Assembly: GCA_029204225.1 (NCBI GenBank)
Contig: CM055109.1
Span: 33,206,317 to 33,270,316 of the forward strand
DNA length: 64,000 nt
From: Diphasiastrum complanatum
Lineage: Eukaryota; Streptophyta; Lycopodiopsida; Lycopodiales; Lycopodiaceae
Reading direction: 5' to 3'
The translations under genes were made by a program, and so were the position numbers. Of this stretch, positions 27,085 through 52,500 are shown piece after piece (position 1 is the stretch's first letter; each line of letters opens with the position of its first letter). The notes beneath the pieces were generated by a model, which searched no databases, had not been told where the DNA came from, and was given only the letters and a program-made list of their open reading frames with translations.

Positions 27085-27774
27085 TGTGAAAGTACTGTAC
27101 TTTAGGACCATAAATGGATCTACAAAAGATTCACAAGAGTGATTGGATGCTTGCTTAACAATCTATCAAAAAACTAGACACACAAAAGTTGATCTAGATT
27201 GGCAATTTGCAAACAACAAGCATTAACAATCAAAAGCATTGAAATCCGAGCCCACATGTGTGTACTACAGGTTGTAGTACGGCCTTAAATTTGAGAAACA
27301 AGTAGAAATTGATTTGGTTGCATTTGGATCACAAAAACTCAATGTTCATAGTGAACTAGCTTGAGATTGCCAATGAGCTCCAAAATTTTTCTATCTTCTC
27401 ACTATGGAGAGAGGGAATACATACCAAATTCGACTTCCTTCTTGAAGTTAGGTGGATTTCCAGCATGTAATAAGGAAACTAACTCACTCTCCTTGACCTA
27501 AAATGAAACCCTAGTCTATTTCCTAGAGTTATGCTTGGTAGGTAGCTAGTTGGTCAAATTTTCACCTTAAACTTAGGTGTAGGTCCTATAAAGTAGGGAT
27601 GACCACCAAATAGACATGACCAACTCTCTTGACTTGACCTAACCTACATTAGGATGGGTTTTCCACGTGGCATCATGGTCTCACATGTGTGGGACCCGCT
27701 TGTGTACACAATTTACACTATTCTACATGGTTTTTGATCAAGCTAGATTTGCCAATTTTTGGCAATTCTTCACA
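27085..27774 (-). repeat. 3' LTR of copia D
   Basis: 690 bp, TG...CA; plus-strand start TGTGAAAGTACTGTAC, end GGCAATTCTTCACA. I count roughly 20 substitutions against the other LTR, mostly transitions, plus a one-base indel. Confidence 0.93.
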
Positions 27775-27823
27775 CTCTTCCTTTGATCTATTTACAACTC
27801 TCTTGATAGATGAATGAAAGCTT

Positions 27824-28565
27824 TTAGAAGTGTCTAAAAAATCCATCTACAAACAAGGAACTTTTGAGACTCCAATAGAGAATGATGTCCATGAAGGATC
27901 TTTCACCACCTCTTAGAGGATCCCTTACAAGATGTTCCATAAATGTGTCTATATACATGTAGCACACTTCAAAACTAAACATCATGCCAAGCCATGGATT
28001 CCAAGGCATTTTGTGCGCTTGAAGATACATCAATTAAAATATTAAGTGCATAAATAATGTTGCCAAAGACAACTTGTCTTGCTTGATCCATATGATTGAG
28101 CCTAGATGGCTCCATCTTGATACTCAAGGTTCTTCTTGGAGTCCCCGGGTCTTGAGTTTGCTCCTCCACTTGACTTGACTCCAAACCATCAATGAATTGA
28201 ATAAGGTGTTGATCCAAAGGTGCTTCTTCAAGTTTACAAATCTTCCACTCTTGAAAGATCACATTTCCACCATTGACAAATTCTTTGGCTGAAAACAAGT
28301 AGATTCTACAATCTCTACTTGAAGAGCAAAACACTACCATTATTCCTATCATTGAAATAGGATAATCTTTGGTCCTTACATTGGAATGATCATGCTCAAA
28401 GCATGTGGACCCAAAGATTTCCAATACAAATGATGTTTCATCTTTTATGACATTATTCAAACTATTACAAAAATAGTTATCCAATGAAATTGCTTTATCA
28501 ACAACAAATGGAGATTTGAAAGCATCTAATTTCATTGTCTTGTCATAAAGAGTACTAAACACCAT
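27824..28565 (-). pseudogene. Copia D scraps of integrase C-terminus and RT
   Basis: Minus-strand frame 28565-27975 resembles the copia integrase C-terminal part (LEIFGSTCFEHDHSNVRTKD, RIYLFSAKEFVNGGNVIFQE), then a linker rich in acidic residues (VEEQTQDPGTPRRTLSIKME). The frame 28033-27824 contains ERSFMDIILYWSLKSSL, recognisable as the RT connection region by comparison with ERSFKDITLYRKLVGSLIYL in copia A. The RT palm between them is deleted. Confidence 0.6.
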
Positions 28566-28623
28566 AGATCTTCAAGATAAGCAACAAGTCACTCCATGTT
28601 TAATAATACTATCTAAAAAGTAT

Positions 28624-30035
28624 TCAAAGATAGTAGACTCTCCAATGCTTACCACCCTTGGAAGATGCACACTTGAATGGACAATTTGCATGCAATTTGA
28701 TGACTTGGCCATTATCATTGAGGACTCCCTTGGAACTCTCATGCTTTGAAACCTCAAGATCTTCCTCCTTTTGATGCTCCTCCTCAATGCAAGCAAGATC
28801 ACACTTTGCCAAGATCTCCTCTTGAGTGATCTCCTGCTTTGCCAAGCTCATTCTTTCAAAAGCAACACTAGCTTCCAACTTAAACAATCTTCCATGTTTA
28901 AATCCCTTTGCAATGCAAATACCATTCTTCAAGATGAAGCAAACACCATGCTTAAAGTGGACATCCAAACCACTTTCTAAAAGTAGACCAACACTAAGCA
29001 TATTCTTGGTGATTGATGGTATATAAAGGACATTTTCTAGATCCATGCCTAGACACAAAGAGATGGTGCCAACACCATCTATCTTACACTCTTCATCATT
29101 TGCAGTAAAGACAAACTTTTTAGCAGCATTGAAAGAGTGTAAGGTTGAGAAAAAGTCCTTTTCACAAGACATGTGGGAGCTAGCCCCACTGTCAATCCAC
29201 CAATTGTCTCTTGAATTGCCATTGCTTGTTGGTGAGGATGTAGATGCCATCAAGAATACATCTACTTCATCCTCCTCCTCCTCCTTTGCAAGGTTTCCTT
29301 GTTTGTCCTCCTCCACTTGTGCTCTTAGCCTCTTGTAGCATTCACATGCATAATGCATCTTCCTTCCACAAAAGAAGCATTTCTGCTTTGACTTGTCCTT
29401 TGAGCTTGATGCATCATCCTCTTCTTTGGCCTCCTTTGGATGCTTCTTCTTTCCATTGGTCTTCTTTTTGCCCTTGAATGAGAAATTGGCTTTCTCATCA
29501 CCATCCTGCAACGACAAGGAACTCATCCTAGATTTTGCATGGAGCATCTTACACTCTTCAACCACTAATACACTGTGAAGTTTTTCTATAGTTGGCAAAG
29601 TGTCTTGGATGGCAAAACTTTGGAACAAATTTGCAAAGTCATCTCCTAGACCATTAAGGACAATTTGTACAAGCTCTCCATCATGAATCTTCTCTCCAAT
29701 GGAAGCCAACTCCCTATTTAGAAACTTGATTCTGAGTACATAATCCTGTGCACTCTCCTCACTTCTCCTCATGCTTTGCAAAATTTGATTTCTAAGCATA
29801 AGAACTCTAGAAGTGTTGCTAGACTCATAGATTGATTTTAAAGACTCCAAGCCTCTTTAGCACTAGTACAAGCTGATACTTCTCTCAACAAATCATTGCT
29901 CACATTCATCTTCACACAATGAAGTGCAAGCCTAGATCTCTTCTTGTATCTAGCTAACTCCTGTGCACCTAGAGGTTCATCTTCATCTTCAATCAAGAAC
30001 TCATAAAGGTCTTGGAGCACCAAGAGTGACTCCAT
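28624..30035 (-). pseudogene. Copia D gag, protease and GAG-pre-integrase
   Basis: Gag starts in 30035-29838 (MESLLVLQDLYEFLIEDEDE) and continues after a frame step in a long 408-codon frame (29850-28624): UBN2-type gag (LRIKFLNRELASIGEKIHDG), a Lys-rich basic stretch, zinc knuckle CFFCGRKMHYACEC with the exact C-x2-C-x4-H-x4-C spacing, then protease WWIDSGASSHMS with catalytic DSG intact, then GAG-pre-integrase (GVCFILKNGICIAKGFKHG). It is the best preserved retroelement frame in the window and lacks only its first part, by one frameshift. Confidence 0.85.
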
Positions 30036-30919
30036 TCTAACCTTCCAAACCTCTCAGTAGCTTCTAGAAGGTATGCTCCAGCAAATCCCATCTTACTAGT
30101 GACTTCTACAAACAAGAAATAGATTTGATTGACTTGAAACTCACAAAGGTCTCACACTTGCAGTGTTTCACTCAAATTTGATTTCTAATCCAACAAAACT
30201 CAAATTTGATTTCTAATCCAACAAATGGACTTATAATCACAGTTCTATCACTCCCTCACAAAGCTGGAATGAAGATAAGATGAAGTGAAAACTACTTTCA
30301 CAAATCTTGCCAAGAAATGGATTTGATTGTCTCTAGAAACTCACTAAGGTCTCTCTCTTGTAGTTTTTCACTCAAATTAGATTTCTAATCCAACAAATGG
30401 ACTTATAATCTCAGTTCTAGCACTCCCTCACAAAGTTGGAATGAAGATAAGATGATGTGAAATATACTTACAATCAAATCTTGCCAATTTTGGTTGTTTT
30501 TGGACAAAAAAATGACTTAATCTCTTTCTTCCTTCTTGGTGTACTTTCAAGACCTGTTTTTAACCTTAATAGGACTTGAATTCAGCCTAGATTAATTAGA
30601 TTCCATGAAACAAATTCAAATCTAATCAATGGCAAATGATCTTGGTAGATTAAACTAGGATCTCCACCAAAAATTACACCAACAGCTCACAAATTGAATT
30701 TTTTTGGATCAAATGAATACCCACATTAAATGCAGGTTCAGAGGTGCCCACACATGGACAGTACAGATTTGGACCCCTACCAAGTTTGGGATCAAATCTC
30801 CTCACCAAAATCAAGATTCTAGCTCGCCCTCTCAATACTAGTTTTTAGCACCAAAACTTGCTAAAAATGGATTTGCATTAGATCAATGGCTTATGCTCCT
30901 GTACTTGGCTCTAAACCCA

Positions 30920-31610
30920 TGTGAAAGTACTGTACTTTAGGACCATAAATGGATCTACAAAAGATCCACAAGAGTGATTGGATGCTTGCTTAACAATCTA
31001 TCAAAAAACTAGACACACAAAAGTTGATCTAGATTGGCAATTTGACAAACAACAAGCATTAACAATCAAAAGCATTGAAATTTGAGCCCACACGTGTGTA
31101 CTACAGGCTGTAGTACGGCCTTCAACCTGAGAAACATGTAGAAATTGATTTGGTTGCATTTGGATCATAAAAACTCAATGTACATAGTGAACTAGCTTGA
31201 GATTGCCAATGAGCTCCAAAATTTTTCTATCTTCTCATTATGGAGAGAGGGAATACATACCAAATTCGACTTCCTTCTTGAAGTTAGGTGGATTTCCAGC
31301 ATGTAATAAGGAAGTTAACTCACTCTCCTTGACCTAAAATGAAACCCTAGTCTATTTCCTAGAGTTATGCTTGGTAGGTAGCTAGTTGGTCAAATTTTCA
31401 CCTTAAACTTAGATGTAGGTCCTATAAAGTAGGGATGACCACCAAATAGACATGACCAACTCTCTTGACTTGACCTAACCTACATTAGGATGGGTTTTCC
31501 ACGTGGCATCATGGCCTCACATGTGTGGGACCCACTTGTGTACACAATTTACACTATTCTACATGGTTTTTTATCAAGCTAGATTTGCCAAATTTTGGCA
31601 ATTCTTCACA
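30920..31610 (-). repeat. 5' LTR of copia D
   Basis: 691 bp, collinear with 27085-27774. Followed directly by TCAAT (31611-31615), the target duplication. Confidence 0.93.
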
Positions 31611-36345: not shown

Positions 36346-39300
36346 CCTTTAATGATGTTGTTCGTGTCGCGAAAGCGTACGACTCCATGGTAGTGGCAGC
36401 TAGGAAGCAGTTATAGGCTAATCCATCTGGATCATCCAGACCCAGCCAGAAAAAAGAGAAGAAAAGAGTTTGTGGGAATAAGAAAACTAAATATTTCGAC
36501 GAACTGGATCAAGCTGCATCTGAATTTAGACAAAAGAAGAAGTTGTCCGGGAAAAAGACTAGAAGGACCAATGTTTGTTTCCATTGCAGTCAGCCTGGAC
36601 ATGTTATAAAATTCTACCTAGAGCGAAAGAAAGGTGCAACTCAACTGATTGAGATGCTAAGTAAAAAGAATCTTAAGCTGGAAATTAATAAAATTAATTG
36701 TGAGTGTGATTGTTCTTTCAGTACTACTTCATTCTTGCCAAATGATTTATTTCGTTTGAAAGGCACTATGAATGGACATGAAGTTAGTATTTTAGTGGAC
36801 AATGGATCTACTCATAATTCCATTAACTATGTCTTGTCTTGTGCAAAGTCTCGGACTCAAAACTTAAGCCAGCAAGCATAGATATCGAGTATATCTAGCT
36901 TCAGGAGCGGAGTTGGAGACGTGTGATGTGAAAGTTCCAAGGCTCCCAGTTTGGATCCAGGACTATAGAGAGTTAATTGATTTCCATGTTTTAGATTTAG
37001 CACATACGGACATAATTCTAGGATACGAGTGGTTATTTATTAATCATCATGAGATAGATTTTGAGAAGCATGTTCTCTCCTTTCAGATTGGTAAAGAAAT
37101 AGTTACATTATTTGGAGACAATTTTGTACATCCATCTGGGATGAGTTCATTTGCTAATGTAATAGAAATTTTTGATTCGCAGTATGAAGCTTATTCTTTA
37201 TTTGCTAAGCCAATTTTGGATTTATCTGCAATGCATCTAAGTAGTTGTGAATTGTCAAAAATTATTAACTCGGTAGACTTAGATCAGGAGCAAATTGAGA
37301 AGAATAAGTTACTGTCTGAATTTAGAGAAGTGTTTCCAGAATAATTACCTCATGGAATACCGTCGTCTAGATTGGTAGACCATAAGATTGAGTTAATTCC
37401 AAGTAGTCACCCTATCTCTAGACAAACTTACAGGTTCTCTTTGAAAGAAGAAGTAGAGATTACTATGCAAATTGAAAATTATCTAAAGATGAGTCATATT
37501 TAGCCAAGTAAGTCGCCTTGGGGTGCTCCTGTTCTTCTAAAGCAAAGAAAGATGGAGGCTTCAGGTTGTACATGGACTACAAAGGGTTGAATAAGGTAAC
37601 TATTAAAAATAAATATCTTTTGCCTCGTATGGATGATCTGGTAAATTGATTAGGTGGAGCTAAATACTTCACAAAGATAGACCTTAGAACCGGATATCAT
37701 CAGATTAGAATTCATCTGGATGACATGTAGAAGACTGGTTTTCTGACGAGATTCAGTCATTATGAATTTCTCGTGCTTCCTTTTGGGTTGACGAATGCAC
37801 CAGCTATGTTCCAACAGATGATGAACGATCTTTTTTGTCCATATATAGGGAAGTTTGTGGTTGTATTCTTAGATGATATTCTCATCTACAGTAGGACACT
37901 TAAGGAGCATTTGAGTCATCTTAGGACTGTCTTAGATATTCTCGGACGAGAGAAACTCTATGCTAAGGAATCTAAATGTGAGTTCTTTAAGCATGAGTTA
38001 TTGTACCTCGGTCATAAGATCACCCGTACTGGGTTGGAGATTGACGAGAGTAAGGTCAAGACAGTGCTTGAATGGCCGATACCGAAGACGGTTAGAGAAG
38101 TTGAATCTTTTTTCGGTTTTACAGCTTTCTTTCGTAAGTCAATTGAGGATTATGCTAAAGTGGCAGCACCTTTAAATAATTTGACTAAAGGCAGAGTTAA
38201 CAAAAAGAAAAAGAGAGGTCAACCAAGCGTGCCTATTGAGTGGAATGATGAATCGAACCAATGATTTGAGAAACTCAAGCAAATGGTTGCTTCAGTTCCT
38301 GTTTTACAAATTCTGAATCCTGATTTACCTTACGTCATGCGAACTAAGAGTTATTTGCTGTGATACATGCACTTAAAACCTGAAGGCATTACCTTTATGA
38401 TAGTCAATTTATAGTGTATATAGATCACCAACCTCTGAAGTACTTTTGCAATCAAAATGATCTAAGGGGTTGTAAAGCTCGTTGGGCTGAGATTATGTAG
38501 GAATTTGATCATGAGATCCGATATGTCAAGGGCAACCCTAACCAAGTTGCGGATGCGCTTAGTCGAATTGGTGAATTAAATAAACTTTCATTCACCCAGA
38601 TTTCCACTGATCTATATCTTTCACTGAGAGGAAAATGTGAATCAGATTCTCATTTTGGTCTCATATGGAAGATGGTGGAGATGGAAAAAAATGAGAATGG
38701 AAATTCACTCACAAGGGTCTCAAGTTCCTAAGAAAGATAAAAAGATAGCGGAATAGTTCTCTATCCAAGGTGGATTACTATTTCAGAATGGAAAAATTTG
38801 TGTACCAGCGGATGGTGAGTTAAAGAAGAAGATTCTTTATGAGTGTCATGACATTCCCTGTGCAGGTCATCCGGGTATACATAAGACTTTGGACTTGGTC
38901 AGAAGAGAGTTTTATTGGCCGAAACTCAAGCCATTTGTCAAGTCTTATGTGGTTAAGTGTAGACCTTGCCAGTTAGCCAAAGCAGAACGCTTAAGGGTTG
39001 TTACATTCCCTAGATATCCCTCAGAAGCGATGTTAAAGTATATTTATGGATTTTGTGGTTGGACTTTCAAAGACCCAACGCCAAAATGAATCTATTTGGG
39101 TTGGTGGATAGGTTGACAAAGTTAGCTACTTTTATACCAGTCAAGTCAACTGCTAAGGCTTCGGATTTAGCCTAGATCTTTGTGGAAAGATTATTTAGGC
39201 TTTATGGACTGCCAAGTGCTATAGTTAGTGATAGAGATCCTAAAATTTACAAGTCATTTTTGGTCAGCTGTATTCCATAAGCTTGAAACCTTGTTTAGTT

Positions 39301-39985
39301 TTAGTTCTTCTGATCATCCTGAATTAGATGGCCAGACTAAGAGAACTAATTAGACTATGGAGGATATGTTGAGAACTTATGTGTCTCACAAGCAATCTCA
39401 GTGGAAAGATTACATTCCTTTGATTGAATTTGCTTATAATAGTAAGAAACATTCTGCTACTGGTTATAGTCCGTTTATGCTGATGTACGATTTTCAACCT
39501 AGATCTCCGATAAATGTGGAGACAAAGTCCGTTAAGATTCAGAAAGTTGCAGATTCTGGCATGATATGCGTGAAATGTTGCAAGTGGCCCGTGATTGTAT
39601 CTGGAGTACTTAGGATAGAGCTAAGCACTATGCCGATCTTAAGAGGTCTCCCAGAGATTTTAAAGTTGATGACTGGGTATATCTTAGAATACATAAGGAT
39701 TCTAAGACTATGAGTACAGCGAAGCATTATAAATTGTCTACGAGATATTGTGGACCGTTTCGGATTATAAAGAAAATTGGTTCTTTAGCTTACGAACTAG
39801 ATCTTCAGAACAAGACTACAGCTCACCCTGTGTTTCATATATGCTGTTTAAAATTAAGTTTACATGAAGGTGCAGTTGGTTCAGAGGAAGATCTTACCCA
39901 TTTGGAGGACTCATCGCTTAGTGTTCCTTCGAAACCTGAAAAGGATATTTTCAAGAACAAATTATGGCGAGATTATCAAGAGACA
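36346..39985 (+). mobile_element. Gypsy E: Ty3/gypsy gag end and complete pol order, no LTRs
   Basis: Starts within the end of gag (VVRVAKAYDSMVVAARKQL). A knuckle-like CFHCSQPGHVIKFY has Tyr in place of the last Cys. Protease: ILVDNGSTHN (36795-36825). RT: about 37380-38170, with GAPVLL, YPLP-like [28 protein letters not shown] and VVFLDDILIYS, catalytic Asp pair intact. RNase H: 38340-38580 (YIDHQPLKYF, RYVKGNPNQVADALSR). Integrase: zinc finger HDIPCAGHPGIHKTL...CRPCQLAKA (38850-38990), then the core to about 39500, and a chromodomain start that stops near 39985 (WRDYQ). At least eight in-frame TAG/TAA/TGA codons; TAGs at 36414, 37501, 37728, 38498, 39173 and 39351 sit where relatives have Gln. 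No LTR on either side. Same lineage as gypsy F and G. Confidence 0.85.
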
Positions 39986-41061
39986 TTTGGAGGGTGAGAA
40001 ATTTACAGTTGAAAACCATGGAAGTTTCAAATTCAATGGCGCCTTGTAGGGGATTTGAAAACATTAAAATGTATGTATAATGTCTCTCATGGGGCAACAT
40101 CAAAGCATCCATGTCTTTATTGCATGAAGGATTGCTACAATATGAATTTGGGACGATCAACAAACATTGGCCCAACACGAGAAGCTGAAGATCCAAATAT
40201 AAAAAGTGTTCTGCCAATTCCATTAAAAAATGTTCACATATGCACATTGCATGCTGAGGTTTGTATTATTGAAAAACTTATTTACCTGCATATTCTACTA
40301 GCATGGAATCATAAACCGGAATCTGTGGCTAAAGCATCAATCAGGAGGTTGGAAATAGTTCTGTCAAATGCAAGACTACATAAAGGGAATGTCACGATTG
40401 AAAAAAGTGACAGGCTTTCCGGGAAGAAAGGAAACGTTCCTAATAAGCTATCAATTGGAGGTGCTAAGGCAAGAAGATTCTTATCCAATCACACATGCAA
40501 AGAATCAAGTGTCAAATACGAAATTTGGAGAGAAATTGTTCAAGCCACACAAACTTTGGAAGGAAGTAATTGAGTGGAAAAGAGACAAGTGTGAACCAAC
40601 TTAGACAAACTCATAGGTGTTATCAGGAAAGAAAATCTATCATCAGAAGATCTGAGGACTTTGCAAAATCATTGCACCACATTTGTAAAATCTGTACATG
40701 ATTGTTGGGGAAAAGACAATGTTACTCATTACATGGTGCTAATCTATATCATTATCTGGTACTTTTCTCATTCAGGCTTATATTTTTTTCTACTGATGTA
40801 ACTAATCAAAACTATTATTTGCAGCACATCCTTCTTCATCATGCAACTTATTTTGCAAAGGAATATGGGAGCTTAAGTATCTGGTCATCACAAGGCATGG
40901 AAAAATCTCATTGGCAAGCAAGGGGAGCATTTCATAGAGCAACAAATCATGGAGGACACAATTCAAGAAATAAATATTTAGTTCAACTTTTTCAATGGTT
41001 TTATAGAAGAGCACAATTTAAATATCAAGCTAAAAACTCACCAAGTAGTACGATATTTTGA
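39985..41061 (+). pseudogene. 3' half of an unclassified DDE (RNase H-fold) transposase
   Basis: From about 40025 the frame reads FQIQWRLVGDLKTLKCMYN, then SKHPCLYCMKD with a C-x2-C pair, and later VHICTLHAEVCIIEKLI. After two one-base shifts near 40530 and 40605 it continues LIGVIRKENLSSEDLRTLQ. It then crosses a probable intron (about 40738-40824, acceptor TTTGCAG) into HILLHHATYFAKEYGSLSIW, SSQGMEKSHWQARGAFHRAT and FQWFYRRAQF. I interpret GDLK as the second catalytic Asp, the CLYC...CTLH part as the zinc-binding insertion, and SQGMEKSH as the catalytic Glu region, by analogy with insertion-bearing DDE transposases. The first Asp and N-terminus are cut off at the gypsy E junction. I could not assign it to hAT, MULE, CACTA or KDZ. 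Confidence 0.5.
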
Positions 41062-41129
41062 AAGGCATTCAAATTCATAACAAAAGAGAGATCCTTGTAA
41101 TATATCAAAAATCTATTACAAAAAATTGT

Positions 41130-42010
41130 TTACTTATCATCATCATCCTCTTCAAGATTCAGACGGATGGTATTGTCATGAAGGAATAATCTCCTTTCAT
41201 ATGGATCCAAAAATTCTAAATCTTTCCTTTTGCTCATATCAATGTAACTTGAATAAAGGGCCATTGCAGATGATCTTTTTGTAGTCTCATTGGGAGTATA
41301 ACCCAATATTTTAATAGACAAATCTTTTTTCACAGAAATTATTTTATATGTTCTTGCGTAATTATGGCCTCCTAAACAAACTGATAATGATTTGATGGCC
41401 ATAATGACAATGGTTGCATATGGATTAAAAAATGAATGATATATATAAATCTCATTATTTTGAAAGTTTTTCAAATAATGAGATAGAGACACATCCTTTC
41501 TCCCAGTTGATACACCTCGGACGCCTCCATGTCTCATACCAAAGGCATCTATTTCAATAGCATCTTGTAAACGAGAAAAGAAAATAAATTTAGAATGATA
41601 TATAACACTGCAAACTCATACTTTAACACGGTGTTTGAAATAAGAAGACTGAACATATCAATACCAATATAATATCTACGTACTAGATTATAATCATCGT
41701 ATTCAACGACGTTTGCTCTGCTAATGTCATGTCCTCCAATGGCCTCTACATTTCCGGAGGAGATATATCTAGGCCTTGGGGAATATTTTTTTTGGAATTC
41801 CAAAAAAATTTCCTCAGTAGGCAAAGTTTTTTCATAGGCTTTAGATTTTTCAATCATGGCCTCCAAGGCCTCATTGCCAGATTTCCAGTTGCCATCTTTA
41901 TCATAATCTATCTCACTTTCAAGGTCATCATATGAGAAATCAACAATGTCAGAAAATTCTGATAAATTTTGAGCAAAAAATTGAGAGGATTTTATCCTCT
42001 CTTAAATTCA
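41130..42010 (-). CDS. Hypothetical gene A, probably with an intron; possibly a pseudogene
   Basis: Two consecutive minus-strand frames. The first (about 41990-41640) reads FFAQNLSEFSDIVDFSYDDL and NWKSGNEALEAMIEKSKAYE, then YISSGNVEAIGGHDISRAN and DDYNLVRRYYIGIDMFSLL. The second (41570-41130) begins AIEIDAFGMRHGGVRGVSTG and ends with ILGYTPNETTKRSSAMALYS, DLEFLDPYERRLFLHDN and an Asp-rich tail EEDDDDK. A short T-rich stretch between them fits an intron, but a clean splice could not be fixed. No known domain is recognised. The motif DLxxLDPYERR resembles DLNPYDRR in gene B, 4 kb away, on the same strand. It is divergent to the H3-Ulp1 gene and shares its upstream region. Confidence 0.4.
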
Positions 42011-42104
42011 AAACATCTTCTATATCATTGAATGAAATATAACTTCTATTGGGAGCAAAAAAAAGTACTCGCAAAATACTTTAATTTTTTAGATGATTGA
42101 ACCT

Positions 42105-42520
42105 GATATCGGTTCAACGCGATAGAATGATATCGGTAGAGGAATGAACAACAGTGCGCACGTTGATCCGATATCGTTAGGACGAGACTGAAAGTGTTCG
42201 CAAGCATTATCTCGAAGTAATCATCAATGTAATCTGAGCCTCGGACATCCAAACCACCACGTATGCAATCATTTCGGATTTTCTCTATATATACAGATGG
42301 ATGTCGCTAATTTTTTTTTTGCTTAAATTTCTTATCGTTCTCTACATCCATGCGATATCGATTCAGCGCGCTCGAAACAACCTTCTTACGATCCGCTTTT
42401 ACTCGTCCGTGCCTATCCCCACTACCAGCTATCGGTTTGATTAAGTTCAGATATCGGTTCGACGCGCTCGACCTGACTTCTGATCCTGAGTTCTCCTTCA
42501 TCGCGCGCTGATCCGATATT
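42105..42520. promoter_or_regulatory. Divergent upstream region with five copies of a 17-bp motif
   Basis: Between gene A and the H3-Ulp1 gene. Forward copies of GATATCGGTTCGACGCG lie at 42105-42121, 42354-42370 and 42450-42466. Reverse copies (GCGCGCTGATCCGATATC-like) lie at 42156-42175 and 42503-42520, the last ending 8 bp before the ATG. A TATATA lies near 42288. Repeated sites in both orientations resemble subterminal transposase-binding repeats or operator sites; that role is inference. Confidence 0.6.
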
Positions 42521-42528
42521 GAACACTA

Positions 42529-44564
42529 ATGGCACGGACTAAGCAAACAGCACGAGTCCAGCCAGGTGGAATTCCAATCACAGGAGGGGGTCAAAGAAAT
42601 GCACCACCACCGCCTCGTCCACCACCACCTCCTCCTAGGCCAAGGGGTAGAAGAAGAGACCCACCCTGGCTCAAGGATATTCGGAAGCTACAGAAGACCA
42701 ATAATTTTTTGATTCCGAAAGCTCACATACAGAGATCATCAGACAGGTTACAAGAACTCTATCTGCAGATGTGAGATGGACTGTAACGGCCATAGAGGCG
42801 CTGCACACTGCATATGAGGACTTCCAAGTGAAATTGTTTTCAGATAATACTGTTGTTGTAGTTGTCCATGCCAAGAGAGTGACCATCATGCCCAAGGATT
42901 TCAACATTGTGTTCAGGCTACGAGACACATATGACAAATTTGCAGAGTGCTTTAGACCTGCTCCTTCCTCTCCTCCAAAACAAAATTCAGAGAGGAGAAA
43001 ACGAAAGCAATCTCAATCATCCCGGCTTGTTTTTCGTATACAGAGCGGACGTGTTTCAAAGAAAAAGAGGTCTCATAACCCTCCTAATAAAGCGAGGGAT
43101 TTTTTATAGCCATCTCCTCTGGATGAGATTCTATTTGCTAGGCAATCTCCTCCCAAGTCTCTTCCTAGGTCTCCTTCTTCTCTTCCCAAAACTCCATTTT
43201 TATCTTCTCCTGCTAAATCTTTCTCTCCTTATAAATCTCCTCTTCCTTCAAAATCTCAGTCTCCTCCTACACCCATAAATATTAGTTCCCCACCTCCTGT
43301 TCTAGGAAATGATTTAGATGATTTTGTAAATGTAAAGGTAGAATCAATTTTGAATGACAATTCTTTTTGTGGTTTATCTGTATTACTTTTGTCACCCCCT
43401 GCACTTGCCTTTGTAAATACTCTTCAATACGTACAATATGACCAATTGTTAAACACATATCTTAAAGCTTTAGGTCCTCGATACAGTTTTAAGATGCCGA
43501 AGACCAATGGTGGTCTTCCCCTTTCTAAATTAGATACATGTGAATTAGAAAGTAGGGATAACATGCTAGGTGACAATTAGGAGGTGGGGCAATTCAGTAT
43601 TGGATGGAATTTTTCCAGACCCCATTGTTTATAGATGTAGCATTGTTTCCCCTTCAATTCATAGCTGCATTTGATTTTCCTGATATCAAAAGTCTATACG
43701 ATGATATGCTCCAATATGTCAGACTGGATACTCCAATTCTCGTGCTCCCATACATAATAAAGTAAGTGTATTTTTTTCAGATTTTATTATGTTGAATTTT
43801 TCATATGAATTTTAATTTCACATTGATTCTCATAAATTTATTATTTTCTGATTGCAGTGACCATTGGAGCTTATATGTGTTGTCCTTATACGTCAATGAT
43901 GAGGGTGTGTGTAATCCAGTTTGTTTAAAGATGGACTCTACACACACACACAATTGCCAGAAGCCATATCCAGAAACTACTGGAACTCTTTCAGGTACCA
44001 AATGCAATAGCATATACAAGGTAAAAATTTATCAGTATCGGTTCAATGTGCCCTTGTAGTTATTGTTCGGTTTCTTTTCATATCATGCGCGCTGATCTGA
44101 TATTCAAACAATATTTTTTGGATATCAGTTCGACGCGCGCTTGTTTCCGTTGTTTTATTATAACATCCCGCACATTGATCCGATATCATAATGTTAAAAT
44201 CTGGATACTGCAGTCCTTCTAGCAGGTTGATTCTGTCAGCTGTGGTTGGTATACAGTATGTAATGCCAAACACTTTTTCAATTGGCTTGCACTACATGAT
44301 GGACTTCCTAATCTGGAAGAGGTAAACTTCGATTAACAACATTTAATTGTGTTTTTTTTTTTTTTTTCATAACCAAATTCCTAATAACTAATCTTTGATT
44401 AATAACATTTAACTATGTTTATATTTTTTTTCAGTATGCCTGATGCACTTCAGGCAGGAGACCATAAAGCTTGTGATCGAAAATTCATATCTAGTTGTAG
44501 TGGTAGAGTGTTCTCCACCCAAGCTACTTCCAACTGGAGAAATGGATTTAGAGATTACAGATAG
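42529..44564 (+). pseudogene. Histone H3/CENH3-like domain joined to a Ulp1-type (C48) protease
   Basis: Starts MARTKQTAR, the exact canonical H3 N-terminus. A divergent Pro-rich tail (APPPPRPPPPPP) follows, then the H3 alpha-N/alpha-1 region (DIRKLQKTNNFLIPKAHIQR). A one-base shift near 42735 leads to RQVTRTLSADVRWTVTAIEA, LHTAYEDFQVKLFSDNT and HAKRVTIMPKDFN, i.e. alpha-2, loop 2 and alpha-3. LLIP-like FLIP, RWT, YEDF, LFSD and KDF are CENH3-like choices, but loop 1 has canonical H3 length. A basic tail, a TAG (43107-43109) and a Ser/Pro-rich linker follow in the same frame to 43580. After a TAG and frame step the Ulp1 domain reads QYWMEFFQTPLFIDVALFPL and PILVLPYIIN. An intron (43762-43857) leads to DHWSLYVL (catalytic His); then LKMDS (catalytic Asp). 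A second intron (44021-44222) leads to QVDSVSCGWYTVCN (Gln and Cys). Ulp1 proteases cut SUMO-like proteins and are carried by several plant transposon types. Whether it is one protein or two adjacent genes is not certain, but frames and the missing second start favour one. Confidence 0.65.
44034..44187. repeat. Four further copies of the 17-bp motif, inside the second Ulp1 intron
   Basis: Forward copies at 44034-44050 and 44121-44137; reverse copies at 44087-44104 and 44168-44187. A tenth copy in reverse orientation (GCGTCGATTCGATATC) lies at 44981-44996. Spacing between neighbouring copies is 30-50 bp. Confidence 0.75.
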
Positions 44565-45344
44565 TTGATATTGATAAAAAATTCATCTCACTTGATGTGG
44601 ATGAGACACATGTACAGAAAATTTTAATAGAAATAAATTTACAGTTTTCTATGGTTGTCCTTGCTTGTTTGTTTTCCTGTTATTAATTCAGGTTATGATT
44701 CATTCAGCTTCAATTTCTACGATTTTTCGACATGTTTGTTTTTCATAACCTTGGTCTGCCTTGCCTTTAACATGGTCTTCAAGTTCAGAAAGATGATCTG
44801 ATCGAACCTTTGTCACAACCAATCCAACCATGCGACATTAGTTCACTTAGATTTGTTGCAGCAAAGCTTTGATTAGATCATCTTCTAAACATATCCAAAT
44901 ATGCCAAGACAAGGACAATACAGACCAAGGCAATGAAGACCAAAAATATAATCGATATATACGAGACTTCAACAAGGCAAGCGTCGATTCGATATCTGAT
45001 TGTAGTGCCCACTGGAGTTCAAGTGACTAAAGATCTCCCCAATGGAGATAATGCATTTCCTGCAAGAGACAATGAATCTTCTAAAACTCATATTATCCAG
45101 TTGCAATTACATTATGTTTTGCACCATGGAAATGGATTTGTTTTGTATCCCAACCATCATCCAACAACTCGGCGATTATTTTAGCACTCAAGTCCTTACA
45201 AATAAACATTGTTTTTGTTCTCCGAACATTGCATTTGGAAAAAAAATCAACAAAAATAGTAAAAGGTAGATACCAACTTAATCTATTATTCTTTGATCTA
45301 GTGCTACATATTAATATACTCTGAATATCAATATATAGCCTAGA
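44565..45344. other. Non-coding spacer between H3-Ulp1 and gene B
   Basis: AT-rich, with one motif copy at 44981-44996. No coding frame is recognised. Confidence 0.4.
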
Positions 45345-46009
45345 TCAAAAACTTTCTGAAATTGCTGCATCAAGAGAAATCCATTCCTCACTCAAAAAAT
45401 CTGGTAGAGGATATGGCTCTAATCTACCAACTAAACCATTTCTATCAGGAAAATAGGAGTGATCATAAAAGAAAACTCCTGACTCTAAAAGTGATTTTGG
45501 AGAACGACCTTTATATTGTAAAATACCGATATCCAAATGTATGACATCGATTATTCCTACAATCGATTGAACTGTTTGCCATTCAACAAAATTTGATGGA
45601 TACAAATCTACAAAACAAACAAAAACATCACAAGAAAAATATAATTTAAAGAAAATGCTAACTCTAAAGAAATTAAATCTGAAAACTTACAATTGCATTT
45701 TCTTCTATCATATGGATTCAAATCATGAATGTTGAGCTCATTGTAAAGATAAACATGTTGAACTAAAACTTCCGTGATAGATTGACCGGCAGGTGATACT
45801 TTAAAATCCATTATCCTGCCTTTCCAAGAGCTTTTATATATGTTATCCGATCTTTTTCTTTTTCGGAATGAGCCTTTTGCAGAGGGATGCATCAAGATCC
45901 ATAGATATTTTTGATATATTCTTGGTATCGATTGATCTTCTACATTTTTTTCATTTCAAATATTGATTGCATCAATGGTTCCTCTTGGTCTCTGATTATG
46001 TGTAGCCAT
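45345..46009 (-). CDS. Hypothetical gene B, two exons, one internal stop
   Basis: ATG at 46009-46007 (MATHNQRPRGTIDAIN), then a TGA at 45958-45956. The frame continues open (VEDQSIPRIYQKYLWILMHP, SFRKRKRSDNIYKSSWKGRI, KVSPAGQSITEVLVQHVYLY, NIHDLNPYDRRKC). A GTAAGT donor at 45690 and a TTTGTAG acceptor at 45608 bound an 83-bp intron. Exon 2 reads YPSNFVEWQTVQSIVGIIDV, DIGILQYKGRSPKSLLESGV and LPDFLSEEWISLDAAISESF, then stops. About 200 residues. No known domain. QSITEVLVQHVYLYNEL...NPYDRR resembles NETTKRSSAMALYSSYI...DPYERR in gene A, so the two may be paralogues. The stop could be a decay mark or an unrecognised intron. Confidence 0.45.
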
Positions 46010-46309
46010 TAGTCAAAAATACGAGTATGCAAGCTGAGAACGGAGAGAATGTAGAGATTGCATAGTAAACCTAAGAATGACAATCCAAAATAAGAGATAG
46101 AATGAAGAAAATGAGAGGTATATCAATGAATGACAAGAAGTTCCTAAACTACAAGGATTAGTGTATTACAATTTATGACTATTGACGTCAAATCAACCTC
46201 GAGTGTACAATGACGAGCAACATAAGAGTATTCGGACAGTAACTGTGGTCCAATCACAATTATTTGTTCTGCCCGACACAAAAATTTGGCCGGGAACGTT
46301 CGTCATGGG
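46010..46309. other. Junction sequence between gene B and gypsy F
   Basis: Upstream region of gene B on the minus strand, with no recognised feature. Gypsy F coding sequence stops abruptly near 46310 at ALPMTN, where RT should run on into RNase H. Confidence 0.35.
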
Positions 46310-49044
46310 CAATGCTATTAAGGCATAGTCCATAATGAACCTGTGGAAGAATCTTGTGAATCCCAAAAAGGATTTCACATTTCGAATTGTCAAAGGTCTC
46401 AGCCATTCTCGTACCTTACGGACTTTGTCATAATCGATTTCAAGATCTTTATCCGATATGACATGGCCCAGATAGAGTTTAGTCTGGAAGAACTCACATT
46501 TTGACTCCTTAGCATACAACTTTTCTTGCCTTAGAGGATCCAAGACAATACGAATATGTTGTTCATGCTCCTCAGGTGTCCGACTATAAATTAATATGTC
46601 GTCCAACTAGACCGCCAGAAACTTTCCCAGATATGGACGAAGAATATCGTTTATCATCTGCTGGAAAGTGAGTCCAAAAGGTAACACTAAAAACTCATAA
46701 TGGCCATATCTAGCCTCGAAATCTAGTCTTAGGAACATCTTTGTTCCTAATCCTTATCTGATGGTAACGTAATCTAAGATCAATCTTGGAGAAATACTTA
46801 GCTCCATTCAGACGATCCATATGATTATCCATCCTAGGTAAGGGATATTTGTTCTTCATGGTTAAATCATTTAACTTTTTAAAGTCACCACACAAACATG
46901 TGTCGCATCCTTTTTACTAACCAAAAGGATTGGTGCTCCCCAAGGGAACTTACTAGGCCAAATATGGCCCATCCTAAGGAGTTCTTGTAACTGCTTAGAA
47001 ATTTCATCCTCTTCCTTGATGCTAACCCTGTATGAAAAAAGAGATACAGGTTGGCTTCCAAGAAGCAACTTTATCTGATGGTCGAGAATCCTTTGGGGAG
47101 GTAGGCCATCATGGAGTTTATCAGGAAAAACATCGCTATACTCTTGTCTAAGTTTGTTAAATATTATTCCTTTAGGTGAGTTAACACTTAAGGGACTATT
47201 TACAAGCACGATTCTGGACTGCATGGTCATCCACATAAATTTCATCTTTCAAAAAACAAAGATAAACTTTATTACCAGAATCTTTTAAATATTTAACAAC
47301 TTCTAAAGCAGAAACCAAAGGATCAAAAGGCCTATTTACATCGCCTTTTAGCTCAACCAACGAGCCCTTATGCAATAAGGAAATACTATGCGACACGTAA
47401 TCCTTTCTTAAAGACTCGTTTTTAGAATAAAACCATTCTTTTTCTAAGATTATGTCTATGCTATCTAAGTTCATAGTATGAAAATATAGTGGCTCAACAT
47501 AATCTTGGATGTGAAGCAGCAGTTGAGGAACAAGCTGATCCCAAGCTTGGCCCCGACGCCATTTTCACCACGTACAAGTGAAGGGCTTTGCAACAAAAGG
47601 ATTTAGAGAACTTGAGAGCACTACTCAAGAAGACTAAGCCACAATAAGCACCTCAATGATGAAAATGGAGCCTTTACCGCCCATCCCACTTCTTTTCCTT
47701 CCAAAAAGGCCTTGCTGGGTGGCGGGCCATATGGTCGCCACCTAGCAAGCACATGGGCTCCTAAAACAAGTGGCATCCCCTTATGGGATCCACCTACCCT
47801 CACATCACATGGCCACCACCCTCCCTACGCCACCTCACCCAAGGGTCACTTGGGTCACGTCCCCACTCACCTTTTGAGTCACCGCCTTGACCTCATGGCC
47901 TTATGGCCCAAAGACACTCCTAAATCTCCTCTAAGGCTTGTCCTTAGACTTAGGAGATGGTGCTGGTACAATCGTACGTTCATGAGGAGGAGGTGGAGGA
48001 AAAACTTCAAATTTCCTTCCAAAAGGTGAAGAAGATGGAGGATTTACCATTTATTTTTTATGTGCAGGTGGAAGATTACAAGGAGGTGGATTAAGCCCAA
48101 GAAAGAGACTAAGAAAGATAAGAAGAAGGGCACACAGGTCTGTACTTGCAGTAGGTACAGGCTGCAAGTACAACTGTGTACTTTTCTTTTACTATCCCCC
48201 TTTTTAAAATTCTTATGAAGCCAAAGTTTGGTTTAAAATTGCCTTAGAAATGTAACTTACAAAATTTAGAAGGTTTGTAAGCTTTATTTCAAAACTTAGG
48301 AAGCAAATTTTAAAACATAAGTTAATAAACTTTATAACTTATGAATAAAAACTTAAAAATCAAACTTTGCAAGGCTTCAACCTACGGAGTCTACAAAGTT
48401 AATAAAGACTTTGTAAAGTTTGAAACGTACTTTGTTTCAAGTACAAAGGTCAAAATTTTGTTTCACAATAAACAAAGTTCACAAGGTTTAGGAAGGTTTG
48501 AACTACAAGTTCACTTTTTTTTTCTTTCAACTTTTCCACAAAGCTCAACAATTACAAAGTTTATTGTGCTTTGCAACTTCACATCACGTCACAAGTACTT
48601 TCAAAAATACAAATAAGATACAATTATGGAGATTCCTAACTCCTCTTCCCCAACAAATAAGTTGCTACCTACGCCTCCCTGCTGCCTGTTTGCTTGAGAA
48701 TCAAGGAAATTGTCAGAAATCGTACGTTCGCACGCGCGCAGACTCGCAGGTGGTCGGCAAAATTTTCTTTTTTTTCAAATTGACTTCCAAGTCCCAAAAT
48801 AAGGCCAGAAAATGACATCGGCTTTTGAAGTTTTTATAACCGTAAAAATTCAAAAAATCGACTACTACCACCATAGCTAGCAAAGGTGGCTCGTTTTCAA
48901 TCAAAATCACCTCGGATTGAGACGAACCAAAAAGCAAAGTTGTTCAGTTCGATTCAACGAAATCAACTAAGCCTTCACAAACATCAACTAAAAGCTTAAA
49001 CGAATCAAAAACATAAGTTAGAGCGATTGCACCTTATTCACAAT

Positions 49045-49064
49045 GATCGGTGGCTCTAATACCA
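49045..49064 (-). other. Primer binding site of gypsy F
   Basis: On the minus strand TGGTATTAGAGCCACCGATC, two bases after the LTR end. This is close to the usual plant initiator-Met tRNA site. Confidence 0.8.
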
Positions 49065-49066
49065 AT

Positions 49067-49593
49067 TGCTAGATTCCCCATCGTCGTGTCGGTCATTGCT
49101 AAAGCACAAACAGGTGACGAATGCTACGTTACCACCCAACCATACAGGTACTGCCACCTCACCCCTGTGCACTAGAGCTACAGACCACCATCAAGCAAGC
49201 TCGGATCTCATGTAAGCCATGGTGTCCCATACACCCATGCCTTACAGTCGACCCTCGCCTATCTACATCTTGAGGCCTGGATACTTGTCCTGACCTAACC
49301 ACCAATGAAAGAGCTCTTCATTCTCTCGGAGAGAATGAATACCAAGCTCATGGAGATCCACCTCTATATACATAGTCCAGGTGGGTCATCTCCCTCCATA
49401 GGAGTCACGCATGACCAACGACATGCGGCAGTTGTGCACACTGACACAGGTCCATAGTAATGAGTCATCGCACACCAATGAGACATTGACACGTGGCACC
49501 CAAAAGACCTATAGCTCGAAAATCAGCGTTCCGTCCCATTACTGAGACCGTCACCTCAGGTTTCCTGTTGCGTACCCTTATGGGTACGTAACA
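49067..49593 (-). repeat. 5' LTR of gypsy F
   Basis: 527 bp; on the minus strand TGTTACGTACCCATAAGGG to GGGGAATCTAGCA, with a TATATA near 49365. It is set directly into the RNase H frame of gypsy G (NQVAD, then LTR). Bases 49594-49598 (ATCAG) would be one copy of the target duplication; the other is lost with the 3' end. Confidence 0.8.
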
Positions 49594-52500
49594 ATCAGCC
49601 ACCTGATTAGAGGTGCCTTTGATATACCGCACTTCAAAGTCAAATTCTTGCATGAGTTCCGCCCATCTGGCCTTACAACCTCTTAAATCAGTCTGATTAC
49701 ATAAATACTTTAAAGGTTGGTGATCTGTATTAACCACGAACTTATTACCATACAGGTAATGTCTCCATAATTTCAAAGCATGGATCACTGCAAAAAGCTC
49801 TTTTTCCTACGTGGTATACCTGACCTGTGCATCGGTTAGTTTTTTACTTTCAAAGGCAACGGGCTGGCCTCTTGTAAGAGAATAGCTCCAATAGTCGTAT
49901 CACTCGCGTCACTCTTAATGACAAACGACAAATCTGGATCCGCTATCTCAAAATTGGAGCTGAGGCAATTAGAAGCTTGAGTTTCCGAAAACTCTTATCT
50001 ATTTTCTCATTCCACCTTATGGGAGGACTTGGCCTACCTTTGCGACTTTTAACTCCTTTCAACATATTGTTGAGAGGCGCAACAATCTTTGAGTACTCCT
50101 CTACAAATCTACAAAAAACACAGCAAAACTTAATAATGACTTAAGTTCACAAACCGTTTGAGGGACTGGCCATTCCACTACCATCTTCACCTTTTTCTCG
50201 TCAATCTTGATCCCAAAAGAGGTGATCTTATGACCAAGGTAACGAAGTTCTTTTTTAAAGAATTCGCACTATGATTCCTTTGCATAAAGCTTCTCTTGTC
50301 TTAAGATATGTAAGACAGTACAAAGATGCTTAGCATGCTCTTTGAGTGTTTTACTGTAGATCAAAATATTGTCCAGAAACACTACTAGAAACTTTCCCAA
50401 ATATGGACGAAATAAATCGTTCATCATTTGCTGGAAAGTTTTAGGAGCACTGGTTAAACCAAAGGGCAAAACTAGAAACTCGTAGTGGCCAAAACCGGTC
50501 TTAGATACATCTTTCGGATGTATCCTGATCTGATGATATCCCGTACATAGATCAATTTTTGTGAAGTATTTAGCTCCATTTAACCGATCTATGAGATCAT
50601 CCATCCTGGGCAACGGGTATTTATTTCTTATCGTAAGTTTGTTCAGACCCTTGTAATCCACACATAACCGAAAACCCCCATCTTTCTTACTCTTAAAAAG
50701 GACAGATGCTCCCCATGGAGACTTACTTGGTCTGATGTGCCCCATCCTAAGATATTCCTCGATTTACCTTGCCACTTCCTCCTCTTCCTTTTGACTAAAC
50801 CTGTAAGGTCGTTGCGGGCAAAAGATCTATCTTATGGTCCACTGACCGAGTGGGTGGTAGTCCGTAAGGTAGCTGTTTCAGAAAGACTTCACCAAATTCT
50901 TGTTTCAAATCTTGTAGTAGTTGTTGTTCCTGATGCGAATTTTCGGTGTTAAAACATGAAAACACATTCACATTACCAACATCACAATGCATACAAGATT
51001 TTAAACCAAATGAAAGAGTTCACACTCAGAATCATGAAGTTTCTCTATTAATTCAGCCGAGGAAATTATTGGCGATGGCAGTACATCAGTCTCTCCAGAA
51101 ATAGAGACTATTTGATCAAACTTATTTTTAAATACCAAAGTATGATTTTTGAAATTTATTTCTAATGGATCAGATTTATCGAAAAACCATTCATAACCCA
51201 AGATTACATTAGTCTTGTCTAGATTTATGACATAGAAGTCGAGCAGCTCAACATGCTCCTGCATCCGAAGCTCTAAATTTGAGATTTTATCATCTTATAT
51301 CTCAGTGTCCGACCCCGAGACAAGATGGACCACATAACGGTGATCACTGGCCATGGTGGGCACTCGGAGCTTCTGCACAAGTTGAGCATTCAAAAAATTG
51401 TGAGTACTTCCAGAATCTTATAGTACATTTATGTCTTTCCCTAATATATTGCCTCTTACACGAAACAAAATTACAAGTACAATCACAATTGTTCAGTAAA
51501 TTGACTTCCAATTTACCTGCCGATAAATCTACCGCCATGAAATTTGACGACTTAGTTTTTCGTTCGGGGCACTGCTTAGCACAATGCCCGGGTTTATTGA
51601 AGAGAAAACACAAAGAGCTAATTGTGTCTTGTCTTTTACCACCAGCTTCTTTTTGTTTTTTTCTTCTTCTTAGACTGTTGGTACGCCTCTGTTTTCAGCT
51701 CGTCGAAAAACTGCTTCTTCAACTTATTTGTTGACTTTTACATTTTGGGTTTCAGGGCTGTTTGGTCGTGCATGCTTTTTCGTGAGGCAACAACAATGCT
51801 ATCATAGGCATTGGCCACACGGATAACATCTTCCAGTGAATGGAGGATATTTCGTTTACACTCACTTTGATAATCGGCCTGGCAGTCCGAACTGCCACTG
51901 TGTCGACTTCCGATCAAATAGCAGCACCTTGGCCAAAGAATCCAAGAACTCTTGGACATAAGCATTCTGTTCACAGTTTCCCATCTTGCAGTTAAGGAAA
52001 CAGATATATAACTCAGAATCGTCTATTGTGATGAAAGCTTTACGAAATTCTGCCAAGAATTCAGCCCAAGTCATTGGTTTTGTGGAAAGGTCCCTCCACC
52101 ATGAGGAGGCCTTGCCTTTCAGAAACAATAGAACCGAGGATATCCGCTTATCCTCTAGGACATTGTGCAAGCTAAAATAGCTTGACCAATGATTAACCCA
52201 ATCCTCAAAAACTTCTGGGTGCTTGAATTTTTTATCGCCGAAAAATACTTTCGGCTGGTAGCCCAAGTTAGTTGAGGTGATAGCTTGTAATTAGTTAAAA
52301 AGGTTCTGCATTTGATTATTGCGTTGCTTATTACTTTGGCGAAGTTCCAGTACCGCTTTGCCCAAAGTGTGCAATAATTTACTAGAGTCGAGGGCCTCAT
52401 CACTGTCTGGTGATACCGGTTGGATTTCCGTGTCATCACTGTTTGGTGATGCCGGACGGATTTATGTGTCCCCCGTCACTTGAACATCATCTTTGTCCAT
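49594..52500 (-). mobile_element. Gypsy G: Ty3/gypsy gag, protease, RT, part of RNase H
   Basis: Gag starts at 52500 (MDKDDVQVTGDT, then TAA). It continues with the retrotransposon gag core (NLGYQPKVFFGDKKFKHPEV, WVNHWSSYFSL, ASSWWRDLSTKPMTWAEFLA), DVIRVANAYDSIVVASRK, and a zinc knuckle CFLFNKPGHCAKQC near 51600. Protease remnants run about 51264-51001 (LDKTNVILGYEWFF). RT 50745-50269: [51 protein letters not shown]. The catalytic loop reads [11 protein letters not shown], so the second Asp is Asn. RNase H 49788-49594 (NTDHQPLKYLCNQTDLRG, YIKGTSNQVAD) is cut by the gypsy F LTR. Several frames are broken. Confidence 0.85.

Follow-up and report, generated by a model that had tools for sequence, protein, structure and literature searches.

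The window examined here comprises 64,000 nucleotides of the Diphasiastrum complanatum genome (assembly GCA_029204225.1, contig CM055109.1, positions 33,206,317 to 33,270,316) and contains the decayed copy of a DNA transposon, one gene of which joins a histone H3 domain to a Ulp1-type protease (Table 1). A preliminary description, made from the letters alone, had claimed for this gene an H3 tip, a fold with CENH3-type residues, a basic and Ser/Pro-rich linker and a C48 protease interrupted by two introns, all in a copy broken by frame steps and stop codons. The tip MARTKQTAR is indeed present, the piece at 42705-43106 matches solved H3s (E of about 1e-10) and the Pfam family Histone above its cut-off (1.9e-11), and the linker has the composition described. 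The breaks are likewise there, namely a frame step within the H3 fold, a TAG in the linker, a second frame step in the protease part and a TAG in exon 3. The introns, however, number three and not two, as set by GT...AG edges that are conserved in relatives. The (AC)n run in exon 2 (43938-43953) leaves the rest of that exon frame-shifted with respect to some relatives; this microsatellite varies in length among copies, so that many of them differ in frame beyond it. As the five decayed protease pieces of the window copy, each taken alone, match no Pfam family, relatives were required to show the protease. The H3 piece of the window copy (42705-43109) recurs at 100% identity on two small contigs, C273 and C1965, which are perhaps duplicate or haplotype contigs.

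In a search of the assembly (1.74 Gb, 5,176 contigs) with the H3 piece, the best 150 of 5,737 first-look candidates were scored, all of them with E values of 1.3e-53 or less and identities of 74-100%; the figure of 5,737 is a loose guide to copy number only. I fetched 20 loci of 10 kb, picked for their long open frames, and eight short loci, three of the latter being the window copy itself or indistinguishable from it over the H3 piece. Together with more divergent relatives described below, these copies fall into four subfamilies, A to D, the window copy belonging to A. Of 25 subfamily A copies, 20 of them preselected for long frames, 19 can be read without a break from the H3 fold on into the Ulp1 segment (this holds for one of the five not preselected), as can the B and D copies read. 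The copy L010 has, from its start Met, a single frame of 404 codons that takes in the histone, the linker and the opening segment of the protease; its residues 1-131 align to H3 residues 1-132 with one gap in a search of the PDB (E 4e-18), Pfam Histone is matched at 2.8e-20, and its tip reads VQTKQTAR. Related copies thus encode a frame of about 400 codons running from H3 through the linker into the protease, which continues over three more exons. That the H3-like and Ulp1 parts might be separate genes in better preserved relatives is rejected for subfamilies A to D on the strength of these single open frames, and the fusion put forward in the preliminary description is supported beyond the window.

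Catalysis by Ulp1/SENP proteases depends on a His-Asp-Cys triad and a Gln. The gene has its His in exon 2 and its Gln and Cys in exon 3. In subfamily A, the His is kept in all 21 readable copies of exon 2, the window included, and the third catalytic site is Asn in 19 of these, Ser in L023 and Asp in the window copy alone; among 21 readable copies of exon 3, Cys is found in 19 and Gln in 17. Since both exons were located by patterns that contain the catalytic codons (with <=4 and <=6 mismatches, respectively), these counts lean toward conservation. In B, C and D, each judged from a single copy, His, Asn, Gln and Cys are likewise kept in exons 2-3, with frame breaks in exon 2 of B and C. A profile built from five spliced or pieced rows of A to D gave 16 matches in the PDB at E <= 1, 15 of them SENP/Ulp1 proteases (best SENP2, E 3.5e-7) and one RickCE, which I take to be a C48-like effector, and His, Gln and Cys are in register with SENP2. 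The profile made before it, in which C was absent and B and D were less fully represented, had given 12 matches at E <= 10, of which six were SENP (best SENP2, 1.1e-4) and six unrelated (E >= 0.84). Pfam Peptidase_C48 was matched by one of five members (6.4e-4), and exon 4 closes with what is presumably a typical Ulp1 ending. By profile, membership of the protease half in the Ulp1/SENP (peptidase C48) family can be regarded as established, and protease activity is probable, with Asn at the usual Asp site as a caveat. The C48 assignment of the preliminary description therefore stands, but the Asp that it listed is peculiar to the window copy. The protease shares the profile and the His, Gln, Cys order of the SENP/Ulp1 deSUMOylases, yet differs from them in having Asn for the usual Asp in most copies and a histone at its N-terminus.

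The more divergent relatives were found with a plant H3 sequence entered by hand. This query retrieved 13 near-identical host H3 genes (97-99%), many places at 44-57% identity and some partial matches at 79-93%, which are likely H3 exons or fragments. Thirteen short loci picked by hand consist of one host H3, five from further H3-Ulp1 subfamilies and seven from a family here called E. Subfamily B is represented by L043, in which H3 and the whole remainder of exon 1 form one open frame, C by the broken copy L038, and D by L036, L041 and L042. The folds of A, B and C are 62-66% identical to each other and 40-48% to that of D. Compared with host H3, the identity of the four is 38-52%, and with CENH3 of Arabidopsis 39-46%. 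In a fold tree of 19 rows and 94 columns, with six sequences entered by hand and B and C represented by a single row apiece, subfamilies A to D are set apart from H3, CENH3 and E by a branch with 95/93 support; the four CENH3 rows do not form one clade. From this grouping and divergence I conclude that a single, ancient founding fusion probably gave rise to A to D and that the histone domain is not simply CENH3.

The CENH3-type residues of the preliminary description are thus partly borne out: RWT, LLIP and ED(F/Y) do recall CENH3, but loop 1 has the length found in H3 (in A to C; it is one residue longer in D, judged by eye), and the tree places the subfamilies inside neither H3 nor CENH3. 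Derivation from CENH3 finds no support in either tree position or loop length. What the domain has in common with CENH3/CENP-A is an H3-related fold, a divergent tail and a few residues; unlike these, it has no loop-1 insertion in A to C, lies outside the CENH3 part of the tree and is encoded by a transposon. Two side observations concern other H3s of the genome. The host H3 at L045 carries S87, which I take to be typical of plant H3.1, together with Y41 and L90, presumably typical of H3.3, and so mixes both. Group E (L033-L035, L037, L039, L040 and L044, with L054 and L055 upstream) is a stand-alone, high-copy H3-like family, for which at least 150 places were scored with identities of 76-100%; its N-terminus, read in two copies, is MARTKQTARDP, followed by a very long proline-rich tail and an H3/CENH3-like fold ending near RERN, and no protease was seen in the copies read.

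The histone half has a tip that mostly stays close to ARTKQTAR, a tail of near-H3 length and a complete fold. All 26 subfamily A copies retain T3 and K4, and none has K9 (0/26); Arg2 is replaced by Gln in 7/26 and by Trp in 5/26, losses consistent with CpG decay. Tail residues 6-43 of these copies contain 6 Lys versus 167 Arg among 959 residues, and 20 of the 26 have no Lys there at all, K4 being their sole tail lysine, whereas lysine makes up 8.1% of the fold, 9.4% of the linker and 4.2% of the exon-1 protease part. Elsewhere the tail lysines are K4 only in B, K3 and K4 in D, and K4, K10 and K38 in C, compared with eight in host H3; in the one copy of family E examined for this, K4 is the only Lys in the first 86 residues. 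None of K9, K14, K18, K23, K27 and K36 is present in the tails of A and B, and the canonical modifiable set of K4/K9/K14/K18/K23/K27/K36 is not retained in any of A to D. The nine-residue tip, on the other hand, is identical in the best-kept A copies, one B copy and two E copies, with 8/9 residues in one C copy, unlike residues 10-43, which by eye appear unrelated among the subfamilies. Within the fold of subfamily A, R83, R116, T118 and D123 are kept in 26/26 copies, H113, K115, R72 and K56 in 25/26 and R69 in 24/26, with conservative changes at L126 and I130; H113, R116, D123, R83 and R72 are also kept in B and C. In H3, all of these residues serve in H3-H3' pairing or in contacts with nucleosomal DNA.

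The H3 fold and the protease part show a signal of purifying selection, the linker little. The ratio of nonsynonymous to synonymous differences (pN/pS), taken over all pairs of 25 rows (pairs that are not independent, and with 20 of the 25 relatives preselected for long frames), is 0.37 for the H3 fold (0.63 and 0.89 in the shifted frames), 0.49 for the exon-1 part of the protease (0.68 and 1.03) and 0.73 for the linker (0.93 and 0.71), the least constrained region of exon 1. Dropping CpG codons alters these values little. L022, a near-copy of L018, was left out of these ratios (25 of 26 rows) and included in the residue tallies. Neutral decay after insertion pulls the ratios toward 1, so that constraint on the source genes was probably stronger than these values show.

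The gene travels in a mobile element with inverted ends of 31-32 bp. With up to two mismatches, the 3' 32-mer occurs in 958 copies and the 5' 31-mer in 1,021, compared with 0 for the reversed controls. One pair of ends, at C1:21824706-21834945, spans 10,240 bp as defined by the ends alone, and two other pairs span about 6.2 and 6.4 kb; in one of these shorter pairs (L019), both ends flank transposase pieces together with the H3-Ulp1 gene. Among the 36 H3 matches listed on C1-C6 (for C6, in its first 23.7 Mb), 6 are followed on their own strand by an exact 3' end at a distance of no more than 6 kb, and none has such an end downstream on the opposite strand or upstream. No target-site duplication was found at three end pairs of the family, nor at a related 389-bp element. 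The joined flanks of one copy match 40 other places across the junction, and as the five that were fetched have no gap near it (5/5), there was no duplication at that insertion, the single resolved site being CTAT/AGAG. A clean empty site and inverted ends make this a terminal inverted repeat (TIR) DNA transposon. The 389-bp element, at L012:2597-2985 (oriented), has the related ends CATTAGAGG...CCTCTAATG and is likely a non-autonomous offshoot of this family or of a sister one.

In the 20 loci of 10 kb, a putative transposase gene lies upstream on the same strand (12/20), a second gene, here called M, upstream on the opposite strand (13/20), and a fourth gene downstream on the opposite strand (12/20). 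The subfamily B fusion, too, has homologues of the two upstream genes at a distance of 1.7-4.3 kb on that side (putative transposase, 60-72% identity; gene M, 36-50%), with strands inverted relative to subfamily A, and short, weak matches to the fourth gene are found downstream of B and D. Gene M had no Pfam match above cut-off. The pieces of the putative transposase had no Pfam match either, and a profile search of the PDB was empty. A KDZ transposase, guessed from a C-terminal motif, found no support, as neither KDZ nor any other transposase family was matched in Pfam and the PDB profile search was empty. hAT elements make an 8-bp target duplication; no hAT transposase was matched in Pfam among the pieces scanned, and the resolved site has no duplication. 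A viral origin was tried as well: nothing was found when viral contigs were scanned for a pattern of one protein, and three proteins were without match in PHROGs.

The remnant in the window, compared with the copy L018, is short by about 1.8 kb (at 42042/42216-42250) and about 0.6 kb (at 45136/45137), and no terminal repeat like the 3' end of the element was found in the window. Ty3/gypsy-like retrotransposon open reading frames (ORFs), assigned by eye, abut its two ends at 36417-39994 (+) and 46193-50763 (-) and may have truncated it. A stretch at 27085-31610, copia-like by eye, is 95% identical to a stretch upstream of the copy at L014.

Table 1. Features of the transposon remnant, in coordinates of the window
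Feature	Position	Strand	Remarks
Transposon remnant	39943..46275	.	blastn versus other copies, 82-97% identity
Putative transposase gene, C-terminal part	40013-40570 + 40702-41061 (span 40013..41061)	+	ORFs
Gene M remnant, acidic C-terminus	41130..42001	-	
H3 N-terminal tip MARTKQTAR	42529..42555	+	residue 9 not Lys
Full histone H3 domain (tail and fold)	42529..42924	+	one frame step in window copy
Linker, basic, Ser/Pro-rich	42925..43310	+	TAG at 43107-43109
Ulp1-type protease, N-terminal part, to end of exon 1	43311..43761	+	frame step near 43575
Exon 2: His (NDHWS), Asn/Asp (KMDS in window, KMNS in most relatives), (AC)n run	43858..44020	+	conserved GTAAGT...AG intron edges
Exon 3: oxyanion Gln and catalytic Cys (QVDSVSCG)	44214..44321	+	TAG at 44220-44222 in window copy
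Exon 4: protease end MHFRQETIKLVIE	44435..44568	+	frame differs from exon 3 in window copy
Fourth element gene, remnant	45345..45955	-	

Each half of the fusion has a transposon precedent of its own, H3 in fungal hAT elements and Ulp1 in plant MULEs. According to the available excerpts of PMC13317346, Ulp1 domains occur in plant MULEs, and VANC of VANDAL elements, some of which carry Ulp1 (Kaonashi/KIU), directs hypomethylation of its own family. The Kaonashi/KIU elements (VANDAL-type MULEs of Arabidopsis, melon, grapevine and rice) resemble the present case in being plant DNA transposons with an Ulp1 accessory gene, and VANC proteins related to them are, in the same excerpts and those of PMC5735166, anti-silencing factors. 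However, there the partner domain is VANC and the elements are non-TIR, whereas here the partner is a histone and the repeats are terminal and inverted; no VANC domain or MULE transposase was matched in Pfam among the element pieces scanned. H3-like genes have likewise been described in DNA transposons of fungi, as the H3L of a hAT element in Pyrenophora tritici-repentis and as an H3 capture in Pseudocercospora fijiensis (PMC3538342, PMC6710886). As far as the excerpts of these two papers go, the fungal genes are stand-alone, present in tens (26) or hundreds of copies and possibly drifting or inactivated by repeat-induced point mutation (RIP), with no protease mentioned; the H3 studied here is, unlike these, fused, diverged and constrained. 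The Spy group of the PHIS superfamily also inserts without target-site duplication, in AAATTT according to the part of PMC4482050 available, whereas the one resolved site here is CTAT/AGAG and no PHIS-type Pfam match was obtained. Transposons carry TET/JBP dioxygenases and SET methyltransferases as well (PMC12730594, available excerpt). Among the papers listed in searches of one open-access library, part of them on histones in transposons, silencing or mimicry, no histone-protease fusion was found.

The preliminary description had suggested that the fusion might target chromatin or centromeres, for example to guide insertion or to strip SUMO from nucleosome partners; the second of these roles would be compatible with the findings. 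I tentatively favour over centromere targeting, at a probability somewhat short of even, that it is a transposon-encoded anti-silencing chromatin factor; a K9-less, nearly lysine-free and arginine-rich H3 tethered to a deSUMOylase would fit such a role. Removal of the start Met would expose the H3 tip A1-R2-T3-K4, and the H3 half would assemble with H4 into chromatin at the element, which is conceivable since the fold keeps most of the residues that serve in H3-H3' pairing and DNA contact. The incorporated subunit would then present K4 but, in A and B, no K9, K14, K18, K23, K27 or K36 to silencing enzymes, and the tethered protease would strip SUMO from nearby silencing factors. Nucleosome incorporation, protease activity and the effect on silencing are what I infer from the sequences. 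A possible sharper version, which I hold with more reserve, is that of a replacement H3 evolved by the transposon, in which K4 was kept, K9 and nearly all other lysines were lost and a deSUMOylase was added, so that nucleosomes on the element could not be marked as heterochromatin. The K4-only tip shared by group E would then point to repeated origin or survival of mobile H3s with this one lysine.

Several observations weigh against this interpretation. Subfamily D lacks the ARTK tip (MDRKKQTRR) and C has a shifted KST and a third tail lysine, and the tail changes could be a by-product of proline-rich drift. Positions 49 and 63, DNA-contact arginines in H3, are in subfamily A mostly Lys and Pro or Leu, respectively. 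The pN/pS of the linker is not below that of one of its shifted frames, and the frames read as open are those of exon 1. SUMO-specific activity would follow from family membership only, with the usual catalytic Asp replaced by Asn. Finally, a single-sequence structure model of a broken, 134-residue piece of the window copy is of low confidence and has no recognisable histone fold (mean predicted local distance difference test, pLDDT, 56.5; predicted template modelling score, pTM, 0.40); this piece lacks the first helices and was run without an alignment, and I conclude nothing from it.

The principal rival is that the H3 fold is a docking module for free H4 or for H3 chaperones of the CAF-1 or ASF1 type, which I consider unlikely; its variants, in which the protease is tethered to new chromatin or chaperones are soaked up so that transposing DNA stays nucleosome-free, share that low probability. 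The fold is the most constrained region of exon 1, and the chain beyond it runs into a large linker and the protease, which could hinder packing; however, docking would need neither the retained tip nor R69, R72 and R83 with their DNA-contact roles. The tip is instead central if the protein acts as a bait, its ARTKQTAR mimicking H3 and competing for the writers, erasers or readers of H3K4 with the fold as a stable carrier. Its persistence at 9/9 residues in one B and two E copies and at 8/9 in one C copy, next to the unrelated residues 10-43, speaks for this improbable alternative, but a bait does not need a complete, conserved fold, and subfamily D has lost the tip. That the H3 gene is a passenger, swept in by transduplication and without a role for the element, would parallel the fungal captures (PMC6710886, PMC3538342, in the excerpts available) and agree with the many broken copies, yet seems highly improbable, as the fusion, the exon pattern and the catalytic residues are common to four subfamilies at 40-66% fold identity and the signal of purifying selection is present.

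Direction of insertion to the centromere or to chromatin by the H3 fold appears very doubtful too. The CENH3-like RWT, LLIP, EDF/EDY and WL(K/R)DIRKLQK, by comparison with CENH3 sequences entered by hand, would favour it, but the fold lies outside CENH3 in the tree and has a loop 1 of H3 length, and that of subfamily A is about equally distant from the two (39% identity to CENH3, 38% to H3). On the chromosomes of known length, which the distribution tests took in, neither the 79 exact 5' ends among the matches listed (Kolmogorov-Smirnov, KS, p 0.43; clustering P 0.25) nor, by the KS test, the 93 H3 matches among those listed (p 0.11) depart from an even spread, and only the clustering of the latter is borderline (P 0.05). 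With one of four tests borderline, the insertions look dispersed along chromosomes, which weakens centromere targeting; a holocentric or dispersed target could mask a centromere preference in such tests.

The known means by which transposons counter silencing are enzymes that alter epigenetic marks and factors for hypomethylation. If a transposon-encoded anti-silencing factor is indeed what these genes specify, an element with a histone of its own would strike directly at the material on which silencing acts, and its naturally lysine-poor tails would reveal which H3 lysines silencing requires. The genes also provide an example from nature of a histone joined to a protease, as well as an entry point to an unclassified group of transposons, and the presence of four divergent subfamilies within one genome makes the idea testable.

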